The translations under genes and the position numbers were made by a program. This document shows, piece by piece, positions 23,527 to 36,257 of a stretch of DNA of 36,257 nucleotides. A model generated the notes under the pieces. It was not told where the DNA came from. It was given only the letters and a program-made list of their open reading frames with translations, and did not search any database. Source of the DNA: Candidatus Pacearchaeota archaeon CG_4_10_14_0_2_um_filter_35_33 (GTDB lineage: Archaea; Nanobdellota; Nanobdellia; Pacearchaeales; GW2011-AR1); the NCBI GenBank assembly GCA_002792635.1, contig PFOR01000021.1, forward strand, positions 1-36,257. Reading direction: 5' to 3'. Every line of letters starts with the position of its first letter. Position 1 is the stretch's first letter.

Positions 23527-24372
23527 TTATAAGTTATCCAACGGGCTCCTTACATTTTTTATAGATGCTTGTGAAATTTGAGTATAAATCTGGGTGGTTT
23601 TTATATCAGAATGCCCTAATAATTTCTGGATAATTCTCAAATCGGTTCCTTGCTCAAGCAAATGAGTCGCAAAGCTGTGTCTCAATAAATGAGGATAAAC
23701 TCTCTTTTTTATGCTGGCTTTCTTTGCAGAATTCTGAACGATTTTGCCGATTGTCTTTTTGGTTAACTTTCCTTTGCGATTTGAAGGGAATAAAATGTCC
23801 TCGCTTGACAAATCATAGTAGTTTTTCAGATCATTTTTTATAGACGAAGGGATTTTCACAAATCTATCCTTATTACCCTTTGCCAGTCTGATTTTTATCA
23901 ATTCTTCGTTAAAATTAACATCACTCTTTTTAAGGTTAACAATCTCGTTGACCCTTAAACCGCAACCATAAAGCATTTTAATTATCAATTTATGCTTAAT
24001 ATTGGATGTATTATCAATCAATCTTTTTATCTCATTAATTGTTAAGATGTCCGGAATTGTCTTGTTTCTTTTGGGATTTGGTATATCTAATTTCTGGTGC
24101 AAAATTTCCTTAAAAAAATATTTTATTGCAAAAACATTATGCCCAGCAGATGCTGGATTGTTTGTTGATATTTTTGCTAACAGAAAATCTTTTGCACTTT
24201 GCGGATTTATCCCTTTGTTTTTTGAATATTCAAGATAATTTCTGACATGAGATAGATAACCCTTGATTGTTTCTTTAGAATAATTTCTTAATTTAAGATT
24301 TTCCTCTAATTTTCTAAGCAAACCTTCCATGTTCATCAAAAATAATTGTAATATAAAAAGGTTACTAAACAT
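23527..24372 (-). CDS. Tyrosine recombinase, XerA/IntI-like, putative cassette integrase (likely start at 24336 or 24330)
   Basis: Catalytic set intact: R in YGCGLRVNEI, K in LAKGNKDR, HLLRH, LLGH, IYTQ; C-terminus NVRSPLDNL; borders the cassette array and reads away from it. Confidence 0.9.
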   Translation of the reverse strand: MFSNLFILQLFLMNMEGLLRKLEENLKLRNYSKETIKGYLSHVRNYLEYSKNKGINPQSAKDFLLAKISTNNPASAGHNVFAIKYFFKEILHQKLDIPNPKRNKTIPDILTINEIKRLIDNTSNIKHKLIIKMLYGCGLRVNEIVNLKKSDVNFNEELIKIRLAKGNKDRFVKIPSSIKNDLKNYYDLSSEDILFPSNRKGKLTKKTIGKIVQNSAKKASIKKRVYPHLLRHSFATHLLEQGTDLRIIQKLLGHSDIKTTQIYTQISQASIKNVRSPLDNL

Positions 24373-24381
24373 ACTTTAATT

Positions 24382-24423
24382 GGATATATAACCTAAAAAA
24401 GGTTAATATCCGTTATGTTAAGT
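24382..24423. promoter_or_regulatory. Putative attI/dif-like recombination site and first cassette junction
   Basis: Imperfect palindrome GGATATATAACC taaaaaa GGTTAATATCC followed by ATGTTAAGT; GTTAAGT (24417-24423) is the exact complement of cassette 1 R'' ACTTAAC. Confidence 0.65.
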
Positions 24424-25029
24424 CCAATTTTTGTTGGCTCGCAATAGCTAAATCTTCGATTTAGAAATTTAATAGAAAACGGGCGGGCGTCTTAAAAAAC
24501 TACTCTTACTCACTAAGTACTTTCATTAGTCTACTTCGTATAAATGGATCTGATCCTTCCATATAAGAAGTTGCTTGCTCAAATATGTATTTGCTCAAAT
24601 CTTGTACTTCCATAGACGCTTCTTTAAGATTTCCATATTGATTTACAAGTCTTATTCCTTCAACTACTAAATCTAATCTAGACCCTTTGAGCCTATTGGA
24701 AAATTCCTCTGACTGTAAATCTGTGTATATTTCCCTTAATCTTGTTTCTCTTGTATCTTGTACTTCCATTTTATTTACCTTGCATTTAGTAGTATATTAG
24801 TCTTTATAAAGCTTTCGGTTAGTTTACTACTCTTAAAAGACAATAGAACAGACGCCCGCCCTAAAAAAGCTCGCCAACAAAAACTCCTTCGCTCCCGTTG
24901 GTCGCTCGGGCACGTTGCACTCTCGGGCTTTGCCCTCGGCTGACTTAACAGGCATTAACAGGAAACCTCGTTGCACTTCGGTTTCCCAAATTTTGCTCGT
25001 TCCTCGCAAAACTTCTGTTAATGCCGATG
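24418..25029. mobile_element. Integron-like cassette 1 (612 bp)
   Basis: Starts TTAAGT, ends at G of attC-A R'; cassette-specific TIRs TTTTTGTTGGC (24428-24438)/GCCAACAAAAA (24873-24883) and GGGCGGGCGTC (24481-24491)/GACGCCCGCCC (24851-24861). Confidence 0.7.
24506..24769 (-). CDS. Cassette 1 hypothetical helical protein
   Basis: 87 aa intact ORF in cassette body, between TIR arms. Confidence 0.55.
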   Translation of the reverse strand: MEVQDTRETRLREIYTDLQSEEFSNRLKGSRLDLVVEGIRLVNQYGNLKEASMEVQDLSKYIFEQATSYMEGSDPFIRSRLMKVLSE

Positions 25030-25035
25030 TTCATT
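24943..25035. repeat. attC-like site A
   Basis: R'' ACTTAAC, AACA-GGCATTAACAG ... CTGTTAATGCC-GATGTT, R' GTTCATT. Confidence 0.75.
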
Positions 25036-25093
25036 TCAATTTCCAATCTCCTCCTAGTCGTCGGTAAACCAAAAATTCTGATTTTGATATCTT

Positions 25094-25148
25094 CGTTTAA
25101 CGCTCCAATGCGAAATTAAAATTGTCGCATAACATCGCTGATTAAACG
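25094..25148. repeat. 5' inside-out attC-like hairpin, cassette 2
   Basis: CGTTTAA...GCGAAATT aa AATTGTCGC-ATAACA...TTAAACG. Confidence 0.55.
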
Positions 25149-25245: not shown

Positions 25246-25512
25246 TTATTTTAATTCTTTTGCGACTTTTTCGCCTTCTTTTGTTCTTCTGTAAATCCTT
25301 CCTGTTCTTTCTTCAGGATTTACAACTTCAACTAATTTCTTTTCTTTTAATTCAGACAAAGCACGAGAAACAAGATTAAAATAAGTGTTGCTGTTACTTT
25401 TGTAAATTTTCATAACTAATTCAGAGGGCATCATAGGTTTATCTAAATTCATAAAAATTTCTTTTCTATTCTTTCCTCTTTTTATGAAACCTGTTGCTTT
25501 TAGCAATTCCAT
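25246..25512 (-). CDS. Small winged-helix transcriptional regulator (cassette 2)
   Basis: 88 aa; FMNLDKPMMPSELVMKIYKSNSNTYFNLVSRALSELKEKKLVEVVNPEERTGRIYRRTKEGEKV; near-identical to 29961..30233. Confidence 0.8.
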   Translation of the reverse strand: MELLKATGFIKRGKNRKEIFMNLDKPMMPSELVMKIYKSNSNTYFNLVSRALSELKEKKLVEVVNPEERTGRIYRRTKEGEKVAKELK

Positions 25513-25514
25513 AG

Positions 25515-25569
25515 CAATCTATAAGCAATTTGGCTTAAGAAACAAATTCAACAATCTATTAGCAAATTG
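25515..25569. promoter_or_regulatory. Paired operator direct repeat in divergent promoter, cassette 2
   Basis: CAATCTATAAGCAATTTG (25515-25532) and CAATCTATTAGCAAATTG (25552-25569). Confidence 0.65.
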
Positions 25570-26493: not shown

Positions 26494-26685
26494 CTTTCTT
26501 TTTTAGAAAAAAAGAAACAAAAAAGCGCGCTCTTTCCACCACCAACGACAATTTTAAAGACAATTTTCAGCAACTACGATATCAAAGAATTTTCGGAGAT
26601 TGGAAACTCACGAGGTCACTCACTTCGTTCGTTCCGCTCGTGCCACGCCTTGCAGGCTCTCGCTCCATTTCATTACGCTCGGGAA

Positions 26686-26795
26686 AATGAACAGCGATTA
26701 AAGAGAAAATCCTTGCAGGATTTTCCCAAATTAATTTCTCAGCCAGCTCGTAAACTCGCGGGAGAAATTAACTTTCTTTAATCCCGATGTTAAAT
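26686..26795. repeat. attC-like site B
   Basis: R'' AATGAAC, GATTAAAG ... CTTTAATC, R' GTTAAAT; hairpin GAAAATCC-TTGCA-GGATTTTC inside. Confidence 0.75.
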
Positions 26796-26859
26796 CGAAT
26801 TTTTTCTTCTGCTAAAAATTTAAATCTCTAATACATATTTCCCGCCCAAAGAAGCGCGC

Positions 26860-26907: not shown

Positions 26908-27000
26908 AGAAAAACTTCTTTTATCCGACCAACAAAAACCGAAATGAAATTTTTTAAATTTTACACAACAAAGGATAAAAGGCTTAGCCCAAATTTTTCT
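26908..27000. repeat. 5' inside-out attC-like hairpin, cassette 3
   Basis: AGAAAAACTTCTTTTATCC GACCAAC ... ACAACAAAGGATAAAAGG..CCCAAATTTTTCT. Confidence 0.55.
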
Positions 27001-28074: not shown

Positions 28075-28595
28075 ATGAATAATCAAAGAGTTGCTATTTT
28101 CATCAATGGAAGTAATCTTTACCATAATCTAAAAAGATACGACATAAAAACAAATTTTGAAAATATAATAAAAAGAATTGAAACAAAAAGAGAAATTGTA
28201 GATATCTTTTATTATACTGCTTTGTTAGATAAATCAATAGATGAGAAAAAATACAAAGACCATAAAAGATTCTTAGACAAGATTAAAGGAATTCCTAATT
28301 TTAATATAGTTTTATGTAACTTAAGAAAAATTGTTTTACCTGGCGGCTCTGTTGATTTTTCAATAAAAGGGATGATGTTTATTTAGCAACAGACTTAATC
28401 AAAGGTTCTTATGAAAATTTATACGATATTGCAATAATTGTTTCAGGAGATGCAGATTTTATTCCTGCGATAAATCTTGTTAGAAAGAATGGTAAAAAAG
28501 TAATAAACGCTTTCTTCCCAAAAAGTTCTTCATATCAATTAAGAAACTGTTGTGATGGTTCAATTAATTTAAGAAAAGCATTAAATAAAAAGTAG
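28075..28595 (+). pseudogene. NYN-domain (LabA/PIN-like) protein, single frameshift
   Basis: MNNQRVAIFINGSNLYHNLKR... to FSIK, then +1-frame RDDVYLATDLIKGSYENLYDIAIIVSGDADFIPAINLVRKNGKKVINAFFPKSSSYQLRNCCDGSINLRKALNKK*; break near AAAAGGG at ~28366. Confidence 0.75.
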
Positions 28596-28836
28596 TCCCA
28601 ATGTGGCGAACCACACGGGACAGTTATTAATATTATTATATATCTAAACTTTAAAAATCCTTCGGTTGCCTAATTTTCGCCTTTTGTGGCGACTTACTTT
28701 TTAGAAAAAAGTAAGCAAAAAGCGCGCGCTTCCCACCCAAGATAGGAGATTTAAATTTTCTAAACGCAGAAGAAAAAACTCCTTCGCCTTTGGCTTGGTG
28801 CCGTCTTGCAGACTTTCGGCATAAATGCCTCACACG

Positions 28837-28946
28837 ACCTAACAACAGTTATGAGGAAAAATCTTGCAGATTTTTGCCCAAATTAATTTTACGAGGTCAC
28901 TTCGTTCCGCTCTGTAAAATTAACTTCTCATAACCAAATGTTGCTT
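28837..28946. repeat. attC-like site C
   Basis: R'' ACCTAAC, GTTATGAG ... CTCATAAC, R' GTTGCTT; hairpin GAAAAATC-TTGCA-GATTTTTG inside. Confidence 0.75.
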
Positions 28947-29008
28947 GGCTTCGCCCAAATTTTAATTTTTCTTTCTTTCCCGCCCAAGATAGTGAGAGAT
29001 TGCCCGCG

Positions 29009-29046: not shown

Positions 29047-29147
29047 AGAAAAACTTCTTTTATCCGACCAACGAGAAAACCAACAAAATGCTTTGCACTT
29101 TGTATAACAATGGATAAAAGGTTCGCTTTGCTCTCCCAAATTTTTCT
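29047..29147. repeat. 5' inside-out attC-like hairpin, cassette 4
   Basis: GAAAAACTTCTTTTATCC GACCAAC ... TATAACAATGGATAAAAGG..CCCAAATTTTTC. Confidence 0.55.
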
Positions 29148-29971: not shown

Positions 29972-30233
29972 CTAATTCCTTCGAAACTTTTTCTCCTTCT
30001 TTCGTTCTCTTGTAAATTCTTCCAGTTCTATCTTCGGGATTTACAACCTCAACTAACTTTTTTTCTTTCAATTCAGACAAGGCACGAGAAACAAGATTAA
30101 AGTATGTGTTGCTGTTACTTTTGTAAATTTTCATAACTAATTCAGAAGGCATCATAGGTTTATCTAAATTCATAAAAATTTCTTTACGATTTTTCCCTCT
30201 TTTTATGAAACCTATTGCTTTTAGCAATTCCAT
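29961..30233 (-). CDS. Small winged-helix transcriptional regulator (cassette 4)
   Basis: Near-identical to 25246..25512. Confidence 0.8.
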   Translation of the reverse strand: MELLKAIGFIKRGKNRKEIFMNLDKPMMPSELVMKIYKSNSNTYFNLVSRALSELKEKKLVEVVNPEDRTGRIYKRTKEGEKVSKELVKK

Positions 30234-30235
30234 AG

Positions 30236-30290
30236 CAATCTATAAGCAATTTGGCTTAAGAAACAAATTCAACAATCTATTAGCAAATTG
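30236..30290. promoter_or_regulatory. Paired operator direct repeat in divergent promoter, cassette 4
   Basis: CAATCTATAAGCAATTTG (30236-30253) and CAATCTATTAGCAAATTG (30273-30290), same as cassette 2. Confidence 0.65.
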
Positions 30291-30340
30291 TGAGCGAAAA
30301 AAGAAAGGTTTTTAAAGGAGTCATTGTATTTTATTTCATT

Positions 30341-31114
30341 ATGGGACATCACCAAGTATCTTCAATTGAAAGAAAGTTTTCAACAACGCTTCTTTTATCA
30401 TTATTTCTTGGATGGCTTGGCGTGGATAGATTTTATTTAGGTCAAGGTGTTGTGGGTTTCTTTAAGTTAATAACTCTTGGTGGTTTTGGAATATGGTATC
30501 TTATTGATGTATTCGTCATTGCAAGCAAAAGCACAAGATGGGTAAAATATGAAAAAGAAGATGGTTGGATTAGCAAGCATCCATATTATACGATTGGAAT
30601 TTTCTTTGGAGCTATTATAATCCTTTCAATGATTTCTAATTTGGGTTCAGATAATTCCTCAAATATTGAAACAAATACAAATTCTGGAAACTCTCTTCCT
30701 ACCGAAAATGGACTTCCTGTTTACTCTGTTGGAGATGAAGTAATAGTTGAAGATTTCAAATATATTCTCCATGGGGTTGAAACAAAATCCGAAATTGAAG
30801 GATACTTTAGTAATGAAAAAGCAGATGGAGTATTCTTAATAATTGATTTAACGATGGAAAACATAGGAAATACGGCGGAATATCTTAATGATGAAATTTA
30901 TATCGTAGATGATAGAGGTAGAGAATTTGAAGAAGACACTGATGCGAAATATAAATTGGATGATAGCGAGCGTTTTGGTTCATTAGATAAAATTAATCCG
31001 GGTTTATCAAAAAGAGGTAAAATGGTTTTTGATGTCCCGGCAGATATTAAGGGAAAGGTCGGAATAAAAAAGAGTATCTGGTCATCTGATTTTAGTGTAT
31101 TTATTTCTTGGTAA
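30341..31114 (+). CDS. TM2-domain plus DUF4352-like protein (cassette 4)
   Basis: LLSLFLGWLGVDRFYLGQGVVGFFKLITLGGFGIWYLIDVF (TM2); C-terminal VGDEVIVEDFKYILHGVETKSEI...KADGVFLIIDLTMENIGNTAEYL; ATG start MGHHQ preferred over supplied GTG start. Confidence 0.8.
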   Translation: MGHHQVSSIERKFSTTLLLSLFLGWLGVDRFYLGQGVVGFFKLITLGGFGIWYLIDVFVIASKSTRWVKYEKEDGWISKHPYYTIGIFFGAIIILSMISNLGSDNSSNIETNTNSGNSLPTENGLPVYSVGDEVIVEDFKYILHGVETKSEIEGYFSNEKADGVFLIIDLTMENIGNTAEYLNDEIYIVDDRGREFEEDTDAKYKLDDSERFGSLDKINPGLSKRGKMVFDVPADIKGKVGIKKSIWSSDFSVFISW

Positions 31115-31309
31115 AATCTTCTTTTAAAAAAAGAAGCAAAATAACGGAACTCCCCCATCTTCTTTTTTAGAAAAAAAGAAGCAAAAAGCGGGCGGGCAAT
31201 CTCTCAAAATTAAATGGTCGTAGTAACCATCCTCCTCCCCCACCCTGAAAGAAAAATTAAAACTCACGAGGTCGCTTCTTGCTCCACTCGTGCCTCACTT
31301 CGTTCGGTC

Positions 31310-31482
31310 AAGCAACAGCAGATTAAGAGGTAATTTCTTTTTGCTTTCGCAAATCGGCTTCGTGCCGACCAGAAATTAGCCCAAATGTCAATCCAGCTCT
31401 CAAAAATTTCTCAGCTCGTCATTTCATTCCAGAGGATAAATTTTTGGAGGGATTGCCACTTCTCTTAATCCCGATGTTAGTT
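31310..31482. repeat. attC-like site D
   Basis: R'' AAGCAAC, GATTAAGAG ... CTCTTAATC, R' GTTAGTT. Confidence 0.75.
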
Positions 31483-31544
31483 TCAATTAAATCGGACTTT
31501 GAAATCCCCTGACCACCCGCCCCTAAAGAGGAGGATTCGCCGTC

Positions 31545-31580: not shown

Positions 31581-31691
31581 AAACCGAAAAATACTTCTTT
31601 TATCGGACCAAAAAAACGGCTATGAAATGCTTCACACTTCATCTAACAGACGATAAAAGATTTCACTTCGTTACACCCAAATATTTTTCTT
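31581..31691. repeat. 5' inside-out attC-like hairpin, cassette 5
   Basis: ACTTCTTTTATCG ... CATCTAACAGACGATAAAAG..CACTTCGTTACACCCAAATATTTTTC. Confidence 0.55.
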
Positions 31692-31741: not shown

Positions 31742-32479
31742 TTAAGCTAATTCTGCATCAATTATTTGCTTAAATGCACTAAATGGCTGTGCTCCACTTA
31801 ATGGTTTTCCATTAATTATGAAGTAAGGCGTTCCTTGTCCGCCTGCGGAAGTTGCATCAGCTAAATCTTTCTGAACCTCGCTTTTGAATTTTCCAGAATC
31901 AAGACAGCTACTTATATCATAACCAATATCTTTAGCCCATTTCTTTAGTTCTGTTGTTCCAAATTGAGCTGTTCCTTGTACGGGCCCTTTTATCGGGTCT
32001 CCACCATCAAGTATATTTCCTTCTTGAAAGATTTTATCATGCATTTTAAAGTATGCTTCATCTCCGCCTTTCTCTCTTACACACTCGGCAGCCTCAGCCG
32101 CTGGTTGTGCAGCCGGATGAATACTTGTCAATGGGAAATCTCTATAGACAAATTTAACTTTTCCTGTATCAATATATTCAGATTTTATTAATGGTAAAGT
32201 TTCTGTCCAGAATTTCCTACAGAATGGACACTGATAATCACTAAACTCAATTATCTCTACAGGTGCATTTTCATCTCCTAAAAATGCATCATCATCTGCA
32301 CTCGCCTCAACCTGTGAGGGTTGTGAAGGTAATTGTGTCGGCTGTTGTGCAGCTTGCCCTGTTGTTCCATTGCCCCCAGTAAAAACAAAAAATGCCCCAA
32401 CTACCAATATGGCTAAAAGTAAAAAAGTGCTATATTTCCATAATGCGTCTTTTCTTATTGTTAAAGTTGCTTCACTCAT
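31742..32479 (-). CDS. DsbA-family thiol-disulfide oxidoreductase (cassette 5)
   Basis: IIEFSDYQCPFCRKFWTETLPLI...VKFVYRDFPLTSIHPAAQPAAEAAEC...GTPYFIINGKPLSGAQP. Confidence 0.85.
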   Translation of the reverse strand: MSEATLTIRKDALWKYSTFLLLAILVVGAFFVFTGGNGTTGQAAQQPTQLPSQPSQVEASADDDAFLGDENAPVEIIEFSDYQCPFCRKFWTETLPLIKSEYIDTGKVKFVYRDFPLTSIHPAAQPAAEAAECVREKGGDEAYFKMHDKIFQEGNILDGGDPIKGPVQGTAQFGTTELKKWAKDIGYDISSCLDSGKFKSEVQKDLADATSAGGQGTPYFIINGKPLSGAQPFSAFKQIIDAELA

Positions 32480-33676: not shown

Positions 33677-33885
33677 ACAATATAAAATAGATAACTAATT
33701 TATAAATAATACTATTTGAAAAAGTGCCCCATCTTCTTTTTAGAAAAAAGAAGCAAAAAGACGGCGAATCCTCAAATACATTAAGAGTTGATGGTGTTCC
33801 CACCCTCCCAAAGTCCGATTTAACTTTACATTTTTGCCTTCGGCATCGTTGCACTAAAATGTAATCCCTGCAAGTTTTCGGGAGA

Positions 33886-34048
33886 AATGAACAGCAGATT
33901 AAGCGGTTACTTCGCCTTGCAGGCTCATTCACCCATATTTTTGCTACGCAAAAACACTCGAGTGTTCCGCAATTTTTCCAGCTCTGTTTCACGAGGGAAA
34001 AATTTCTACACCTCGAGCCTTTCAGGTCTTTTAATCGCGATGTTAGGC
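33886..34048. repeat. attC-like site E
   Basis: R'' AATGAAC, AACAGCAGATTAAG ... TTAATCGCGATGTT, R' GTTAGGC (fits GTTRRRY). Confidence 0.75.
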
Positions 34049-34121
34049 GACATATTACTCGGTGGGCTCGAAAACAATTACGAATATTTTTCTTTCAGAA
34101 AAATTAGGGGGTCGGCTCGAA

Positions 34122-34167: not shown

Positions 34168-34287
34168 TAAAAACAGAAAAATACTTCTCTTATCGAACCA
34201 ACGAGAGAACTCACGAAATTAAAAATTTCGTCTAACAAACGATAAGAGGTTTCACTTCGTTACACCCAAATATTTTTCTTGTTTTTT
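34168..34287. repeat. 5' inside-out attC-like hairpin, cassette 6
   Basis: ACTTCTCTTATCG AACCAACG ... ACGAAAT taaaa ATTTCGT-CTAACAAACGATAAGAGG..CACTTCGTTACACCCAAATATTTTTC. Confidence 0.55.
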
Positions 34288-34301: not shown

Positions 34302-34856
34302 TTAACTAAAAAACTTTTCTACTTCTGTTCTCTTTAATTTTGAAAATTTGTCGCAAGTTTGTTGTAAATGATAAGAAAATTTATTTTCAAATCCAATATT
34401 TTCTACATTCTTACCTTTCTCTTTAACCGCTTGAACAGCAGGCACAAAATCACCATCACTACTTACAAGAATCGCAGTATCGTAAGCGTCATTATAAGAA
34501 AGTTTAACCATATCAACAGCAAGATGAATGTCATCTTCTTTAGCTTCATAAATTATCTTGTTATTTGATTTCTTCTTTTGCATTCTACATAGGACAAAAG
34601 AGAAATTAGGAATTCTTTGTATTTTGTCAAAAAATCTCTGTTGCTTAATATATGCTTTTTCGTCTTTTCTTCTGTCCAAAGGACAATTATAATAATAGAT
34701 TCTTACAAGTTTTCTATCTCTCAATAGATATTTTGTAAATTTCTCAAAATCAAAATCATTTGGCTTTTTTTCAGGAACAAGCTTTTTTACAAGATGATAT
34801 AAATTGCTTCCATCAATAAAGATTATAACTCTCTCAATACCGCTTTTATCTTCCAT
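34302..34856 (-). CDS. NYN-domain (LabA/PIN-like) putative RNase (cassette 6)
   Basis: VIIFIDGSNLYHLVKKL...IYYYNCPLDRRKDEKAYIKQQRFFDKI...EDDIHLAVDMVKLSYNDAYDTAILVSSDGDFVPAVQAVKEKGKNV. Confidence 0.85.
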   Translation of the reverse strand: MEDKSGIERVIIFIDGSNLYHLVKKLVPEKKPNDFDFEKFTKYLLRDRKLVRIYYYNCPLDRRKDEKAYIKQQRFFDKIQRIPNFSFVLCRMQKKKSNNKIIYEAKEDDIHLAVDMVKLSYNDAYDTAILVSSDGDFVPAVQAVKEKGKNVENIGFENKFSYHLQQTCDKFSKLKRTEVEKFFS

Positions 34857-35924: not shown

Positions 35925-36055
35925 TTATTCTATTAATCAGCGACAATCTGAAATCATTTGGACAGCGTCCCGCCATCCCAGAGTTCACTTTAACTCTAAA
36001 ATTTTGCCTTCGGCATCGTTGCACTAAATTTTAGTCCCTGCAAGTATTCGGGAGA

Positions 36056-36184
36056 AACTAACAGCAGATTAAGCGGTTCCAAAACCTTGCAGGTTTTTCC
36101 ACCCATATTTTTGCTGACGCAAAAACACTCGGGGTCGTTTCACTCCGCCCGAGCCCTACGGGTCGCTTAATCGCGATGTTAGTT
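36056..36184. repeat. attC-like site F; start of cassette 7
   Basis: GAAACTAACA-GCAGATTAAGCG ... CGCTTAATCGCGA-TGTTAGTTTC; R'' AACTAAC and R' GTTAGTT fully complementary. Confidence 0.78.
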
Positions 36185-36257
36185 TCAATTTTTGAGAATG
36201 CCTACAAGTTAGAGTTAAAAAAGAAATAGGAAATAATATTTTTTCTCCCACCCAATA

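Follow-up and report, generated by a model that had tools for sequence, protein, structure and literature searches.

Integrons, both the bacterial ones and the archaeal ones of Ghaly et al. 2022 (PMC9668308), have a recombinase gene divergent from a cassette array with the insertion site between the two, folded cassette sites of the order R''-L''-L'-R', a GTTR-like crossover core and cassettes common to several species, and the locus described here is alike in all of these respects. It is unlike them in that its array recombinase carries no IntI-specific insert, with about 40 residues missing relative to bacterial IntI, and falls outside the bacterial IntI clade, and in that its proposed attI is a strong palindrome. 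The 2022 archaeal integron survey found integrases by the IntI-specific domain (PMC9668308), and searches that require this domain would not call the present enzyme an integrase, so that its arrays would appear at best as orphan attC clusters. The archaeal XerA/dif system of Pyrococcus abyssi (PMC2958812) shares with the locus the protein size, the family model and inverted arms of 11-12 bp around a ~6 bp centre, and the start of the array cassettes looks like a Xer arm, whereas here the crossover lies outside the palindrome, the arms are species-specific, the sites in the array are heterotypic and a separate XerA gene is present. The attI1 site of class 1 integrons is likewise a fixed site by the integrase gene, with crossover at its edge and extra recombinase sites upstream, but it consists of L and R plus the direct repeats DR1 and DR2 (PMC8946536) and not of a covarying palindrome. 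Finally, the CTXphi attP hairpin recombined by XerCD (PMC4792948) may be analogous, with a Xer enzyme without the IntI insert and a folded single-strand site beside a duplex site, whereas it serves phage integration by host XerCD, with no cassette array and no dedicated recombinase.

The window, meaning the whole 36,257-nucleotide stretch analysed, is contig C17 of a 27-contig, 777-kb archaeal assembly, and all compared sequences are metagenome assemblies. It holds a recombinase gene, then a palindrome and then an array of small cassettes that runs rightward to the contig end.

The array recombinase

The array tyrosine recombinase (23527-24330, minus strand) is 267 aa long from a conserved Met, which is Met15 of the listed frame, and its catalytic residues R126, K151, H214, R217, H240 and Y249 are invariant in an alignment that includes 19 archaeal rows. 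It scores above the cut-off of the archaeal XerA model NF040815 (239.3 against 220 bits) and below that of the integron integrase model TIGR02249 (206 against 265 bits), and the latter gave no hit above its cut-off in any of 180 family genomes or in the control genomes. Between residues 172 and 185 lie 12 residues where IntI4 has 56, a gap of 40 columns is found in 19/19 archaeal rows relative to four bacterial IntI, and the IntI-specific insert, or additional domain, is absent; by domain definition the enzyme is therefore not IntI. A Foldseek comparison of the modelled recombinase ranked IntI4 first, which is weak evidence because the modelling alignment included four bacterial IntI rows. A C-terminal SPLD motif was considered as a sign of IntI membership and rejected, being present in the housekeeping XerA of this order.

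Relatives at at least 56% identity form a distinct set: 42 of the family's 181 genomes have one, and none of the other genomes searched in the order does. Further related loci are labelled Aenigmatarchaeota and Nanohalarchaeota. Upon building a maximum-likelihood tree, we observe one clade of 41 rows (SH-aLRT 99), with the 17 XerA rows from this order and the 18 bacterial IntI rows falling outside it. The array recombinase belongs to a distinct clade, found in Pacearchaeota and a few further DPANN archaea, that includes neither housekeeping XerA nor IntI, and the genome of the window has a separate XerA gene on contig C12. Additionally, a 93-aa piece of the C-terminus of a related recombinase, ending INVRSPLD (G000:C18:42584-42811; L092), is probably a decayed second recombinase copy.

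Palindrome, junction and promoter geometry

The palindrome occupies 24382-24411 and has the sequence quoted in an earlier sequence-only reading of this DNA, with left arm GGATATATAACC (24382-24393, including one bulged base), loop TAAAAAA (24394-24400) and right arm GGTTAATATCC (24401-24411). Directly 3' of it come GTT (24412-24414) and ATGTT (24415-24419), so that the gap before ATGTT is 3 nt and not the 5 nt given in that reading. The crossover junction TGTT (24416-24419, plus strand) separates cassette 1 from the fixed part of attI. On the other side of the palindrome, 22 bp away, we find a TATA-like box, TATAAAAA (24352-24359, no strand assigned), at -62 to -56 from the junction in the anchored profile of 39 orthologues; it is about 25 bp from the conserved recombinase start codon at 24330, and is therefore probably a leaderless recombinase promoter, while it may also drive rightward transcription of the array. 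The palindrome lies upstream of this fixed box, and the overlap with the recombinase promoter that had been supposed is not confirmed. Between the two lies an R''-like half-site (24369-24379, no strand assigned) with the consensus ACATCCC..TAW at -46 to -36, conserved in position.

Taken alone, the window palindrome is moderately above chance: as a single strand it folds at -7.3 kcal/mol, compared with -2.05 +/- 1.59 in shuffles (z -3.3), an energy matched by 2/200 shuffles. An ungapped repeat search on the locus's own sequence (score 7.6, equalled by 68/300 shuffles) misses the bulged palindrome, and for this reason single-sequence evidence was not relied on. A search of the window for exact GGATAT..ATATCC at one fixed spacing gave no match, and the palindrome region has no Rfam match.

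Next, we read the regions upstream of 40 clade recombinases, of which 39 could be aligned gap-free on xTGTT. The profile of these 39 loci shows the TATA-like box at -62 to -56, ACATCC around -45 to -41, single conserved positions at -20, -15, -13 and -8, TGTT at +1 to +4 and then the cassette start TTANNTGNAAT; TGTT is the boundary between fixed and variable sequence, and the stretch of about 75 bp between TATA box and cassette start shows no gap across the aligned loci. The sequence-only reading had held that absence of the palindrome upstream of orthologous array-linked recombinases would refute it; this check left it standing, as a clear inverted repeat precedes TGTT in 30/40 loci, with differing arm sequences. 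The dyad is centred at -16.5 in 21/30 clear cases, and 0-4 nt separate the end of the repeat and the crossover in 29/30. About nine of the 39 orthologues have a weak repeat (G019, G031, G113, G141, G143, G155, G121 and others), and a perfect palindrome is therefore not required.

When scanning all possible dyad centres in the 39 loci, -16.5 dominates with 67.5% of cells paired (all-centre mean 29.6%, sd 5.1), and the second-best dyad is at -37, which belongs to the R''-like half-site. Dealing the right halves among species lowers the pairing at -16.5 to 41%, with a maximum of 49% in 2000 trials. For most pairs of this dyad several Watson-Crick combinations are seen, and almost all pairs have compensatory changes, demonstrating covariation; own arm partners score 10.35 compared with 5.6 for foreign ones, and in 13/13 representatives the best partner of each left arm is the right arm of the same locus. 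Loops often measure 4-6 nt and contain TAAA or TTTA. In front of 21 related XerA genes comparable repeats are weaker or rare (Mann-Whitney, p 2e-7). Upon examining the arm sequences themselves, we find GGATATGTAAATT in one subclade and ACGGCAT, AGATTATCAATA, ATGGTATCATGA, ATCATATCATAA or TATACTGTTGA in others, and the arm families GGATAT, ACGGCAT, AGATTATCAATA, ATGGTATCATGA and ATCATATC largely track the recombinase subclades, GGATAT-type arms being confined to the ten-member subclade of the window recombinase. Outside the main clade, in locus L118 (Altiarchaeales), a hairpin TTTTTTACGCAGTTTACTGCGTAAAAAA followed by CTAGCTATATTCAAT lies upstream of a recombinase of 44% identity, a sequence which suggests the same attI layout.

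Cassettes and their attC-like sites

Cassette junctions in the window array read ..ATGTT, and six attC-like sites are found, all on the plus strand, at 24938-25040, 26680-26799, 28832-28950, 31305-31487, 33878-34054 and 36048-36189. Most of them fold on one strand with R'', L'', L' and R' in order, whereas the fifth is diverged, with a 6-bp stem and no clean fold. The attC-like hairpins read AACAGCGATTAAG.. on the left and ..CTTAATCGCGATGTT on the right, and we detect 43 such sites compared with 4 in a reversed control (215 kb). In integrons, extrahelical bases give attC a bottom-strand bias; here the R-L spacer has asymmetric bulges of 2 nt and 1 nt, and none was seen within the L stems of sites that fold, among sites picked by a finder that demands perfect 7-bp stems. 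The 777-kb genome has four exact TTAATCNCGATGTT sites, all of them (4/4) within this array and in one orientation, and sites of this type occur in 15/39 genomes with the recombinase compared with 17/126 without it (p 0.002, hand-taken counts). The full attC pattern gave no matches in 20 genomes, its loop length being too strict, and a shorter pattern was used instead.

Furthermore, the outer arm of each attC-like site tends to pair with the start of its own cassette. The R'' of the first site, GACTTAACA, pairs with the cassette-1 start TGTTAAGTC, and overall the 7 nt before AACA match the start of their own cassette at 4.29/7 positions compared with 2.37 after permutation (maximum 3.10 of 5000), as expected from a circular cassette opened at TGTT. 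The R'' of some cassettes (e.g. attC3 and one in G191) mismatches the cassette start assigned by the finder, in part because the finder missed sites; it overlooks diverged ones such as the fifth site of the window, and cassette numbering in other genomes is therefore incomplete.

Cassettes also cross the boundary between species. Window positions 28938-28986, where the cassette following the third site starts, match at 95.9% a sequence in G014 (contig C3) whose start coincides exactly with attI position 0, and homologues of this cassette are directly at attI in G100 and in G083, the junction of the latter being poorly placed. Similarly, the last cassette, following the sixth site (36176-36257), matches at 96.4% a sequence that starts exactly at the attI junction in G153. 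The boundary of cassette exchange is thereby demonstrated to be TGTT.

Several further features were observed in the array. A repeated hairpin in reverse orientation, resembling an attC turned inside out (CTTCTTTTATCCGACCAAC..TAACAATGGATAAAAGG), occurs at 26908-26982, 29047-29121, 31586-31660 and 34172-34240, about 100-130 nt past the junctions of cassettes 3-6, and is also present in other genomes, including Aenigmatarchaeota locus L116. A second inside-out element, TTCGTTTAACGCTCCAATGCG..CGCATAACATCGCTGATTAAACGAA, is found at 25088-25148 and in loci L083 (G024) and L119, and resembles the L'-R'-R''-L'' of a minute reverse-oriented cassette. Positions 25252-25551 and 29973-30272 are 92% identical copies of a cassette part within one array, and their product is a small protein with weak DUF4364/HVO_A0261-like matches. 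The cassette ORFs 28075-28386, 30290-31114, 31742-32479 and 34302-34856 encode two NYN-domain proteins, a TM2+DUF4352 protein and a DsbA-like thioredoxin, and these genes lie in both orientations. Known integron cassettes are mostly co-oriented.

Proposed role of the palindrome at a probable insertion site

We consider it most likely that the palindrome makes up the fixed half of an attI, through which cassettes enter an integron-like system with a Xer-type recombinase, because the fixed/variable boundary is at TGTT, cassettes cross it and attC-like hairpins bound the cassettes. The attI role put forward in the sequence-only reading is borne out in that the palindrome abuts this boundary and the same cassette stands at the boundary in one species and mid-array in another; the site lies beside the recombinase gene at the point of cassette entry, as an attI does.

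In the proposed mechanism, the recombinase (23527-24330) would join a circular cassette, by way of its attC-like hairpin, to attI and exchange strands at TGTT (24416-24419), so that the fixed left part, including the palindrome, would stay beside the recombinase gene while the cassette would bring the right arm TTANNTGNAAT. The proposed attI core (24400-24428, plus strand) would consist of a left arm at 24400-24410 (-15 to -5), a 7-bp spacer ending ATG at 24411-24417 and a right arm at 24418-24428 (+3 to +13), the last being TTAAGTCCAAT in the window and brought by the cassette. Protomers would sit on two arms 7 bp apart, the palindrome's right arm (L', about 24400-24410) and the R arm brought by the cassette, and the left arm of the palindrome may act as an inverted copy, L'', of L'; the arms L'' and L' and the core arms are thus putative recombinase-binding sites. 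Together with L'', the weak outer ACATCC half-site (-46 to -36) would give attI the order R''-L''-L'-R', as in an attC whose loop is very short, about six bases. This protomer layout, in both protein binding and the role of the left arm, is read from sequence patterns, and we give it roughly an even chance.

A related possibility is that attI itself acts as a folded hairpin, the palindrome extruding on one strand and the recombinase reading the stem, so that both partners would be folded DNA. The covariation of the arms, in which pairing is kept while sequence changes, allows this, and the part order shared with attC and the short loop, often of 4-6 nt and containing TAAA or TTTA, agree with it. 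The fixed spacing of about 75 bp from TATA box to cassette, free of gaps, is however what a protein on duplex DNA would give and favours duplex recognition, the arms track the recombinase subclades as in sequence recognition, and canonical attI acts as a duplex (PMC8946536); on balance we judge a folded attI rather unlikely.

For the palindrome, a regulatory role as operator or as 5' RNA hairpin of the recombinase or the array, with its nearness to the junction incidental, is improbable. Its position upstream of the recombinase TATA box would suit such a function, and a rightward transcript could begin near -33, but the repeat ends within 0-4 nt of the crossover in nearly all clear cases, attC sites have the same L'-spacer-TGTT layout and Rfam holds no match.

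At a dif site, strands are exchanged between the two arms. Here the crossover falls at the right arm's outer edge, so strand exchange is not between the arms of the palindrome. The suggestion of a modified dif, with a chromosome-dimer resolution site as the place or source of the array's origin, could draw on the two inverted arms of 11-12 bp around a ~6 bp centre, on the XerA model passed by the recombinase (239 bits, cut-off 220) and on the resemblance of the cassette start TTANNTGNAAT to a Xer arm. The Thermococcales dif is ATTGGATATAATCGGCCTTATATCTAAA in Pyrococcus abyssi (PMC2958812), in agreement with the start given for it in the sequence-only reading, but the region matches it at 15/28 positions, which 50% of shuffles equal, in a comparison made with the Pyrococcus dif, from which the true dif of this lineage may differ. 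The comparison with the chromosomal dif of the same genome, also proposed earlier, yielded no credible dif at the tested stringency: a dif-like pattern occurs at three loci only, each with 3 mismatches, two of them in coding frames and the third imprecisely placed, and none was found in 56 relatives at one mismatch. With arms that vary among orthologues and a separate XerA on contig C12 in addition, we regard this origin as very improbable; only the general dif-like layout of two inverted ~11-12 bp arms and a ~6 bp centre remains. A decayed attC at the array head or a chance repeat, which the moderate score of the own-genome repeat alone would permit, is almost negligible, as the same geometry with compensatory changes recurs in >20 orthologues, the dyad scan largely refutes it and the loops of detected attC sites are tens of nt or more compared with about 6 in attI.

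With the palindrome taken as the fixed half of attI, the platform is most likely integron-like, a prediction from sequence, though its recombinase is not IntI by domain definition. In the open-access journal literature searched, we found no paper describing this recombinase-array pair and none combining integrons and Pacearchaeota. Tentatively, and with some doubt, there may be a DPANN lineage of integron-like platforms, with a Xer-type enzyme without the IntI insert, folded cassette sites and an attI that is a structure-conserved mini-attC. If true, the DPANN platform could represent either an intermediate stage of integron evolution or a route parallel to it, and it would bear on which came first, the I2 domain or attC (PMC4792948), as a cassette platform without the IntI domain makes it testable whether folded sites were usable before the I2 domain existed. 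DPANN archaea would thereby gain a dedicated gene-capture device, with cassettes common to several species.
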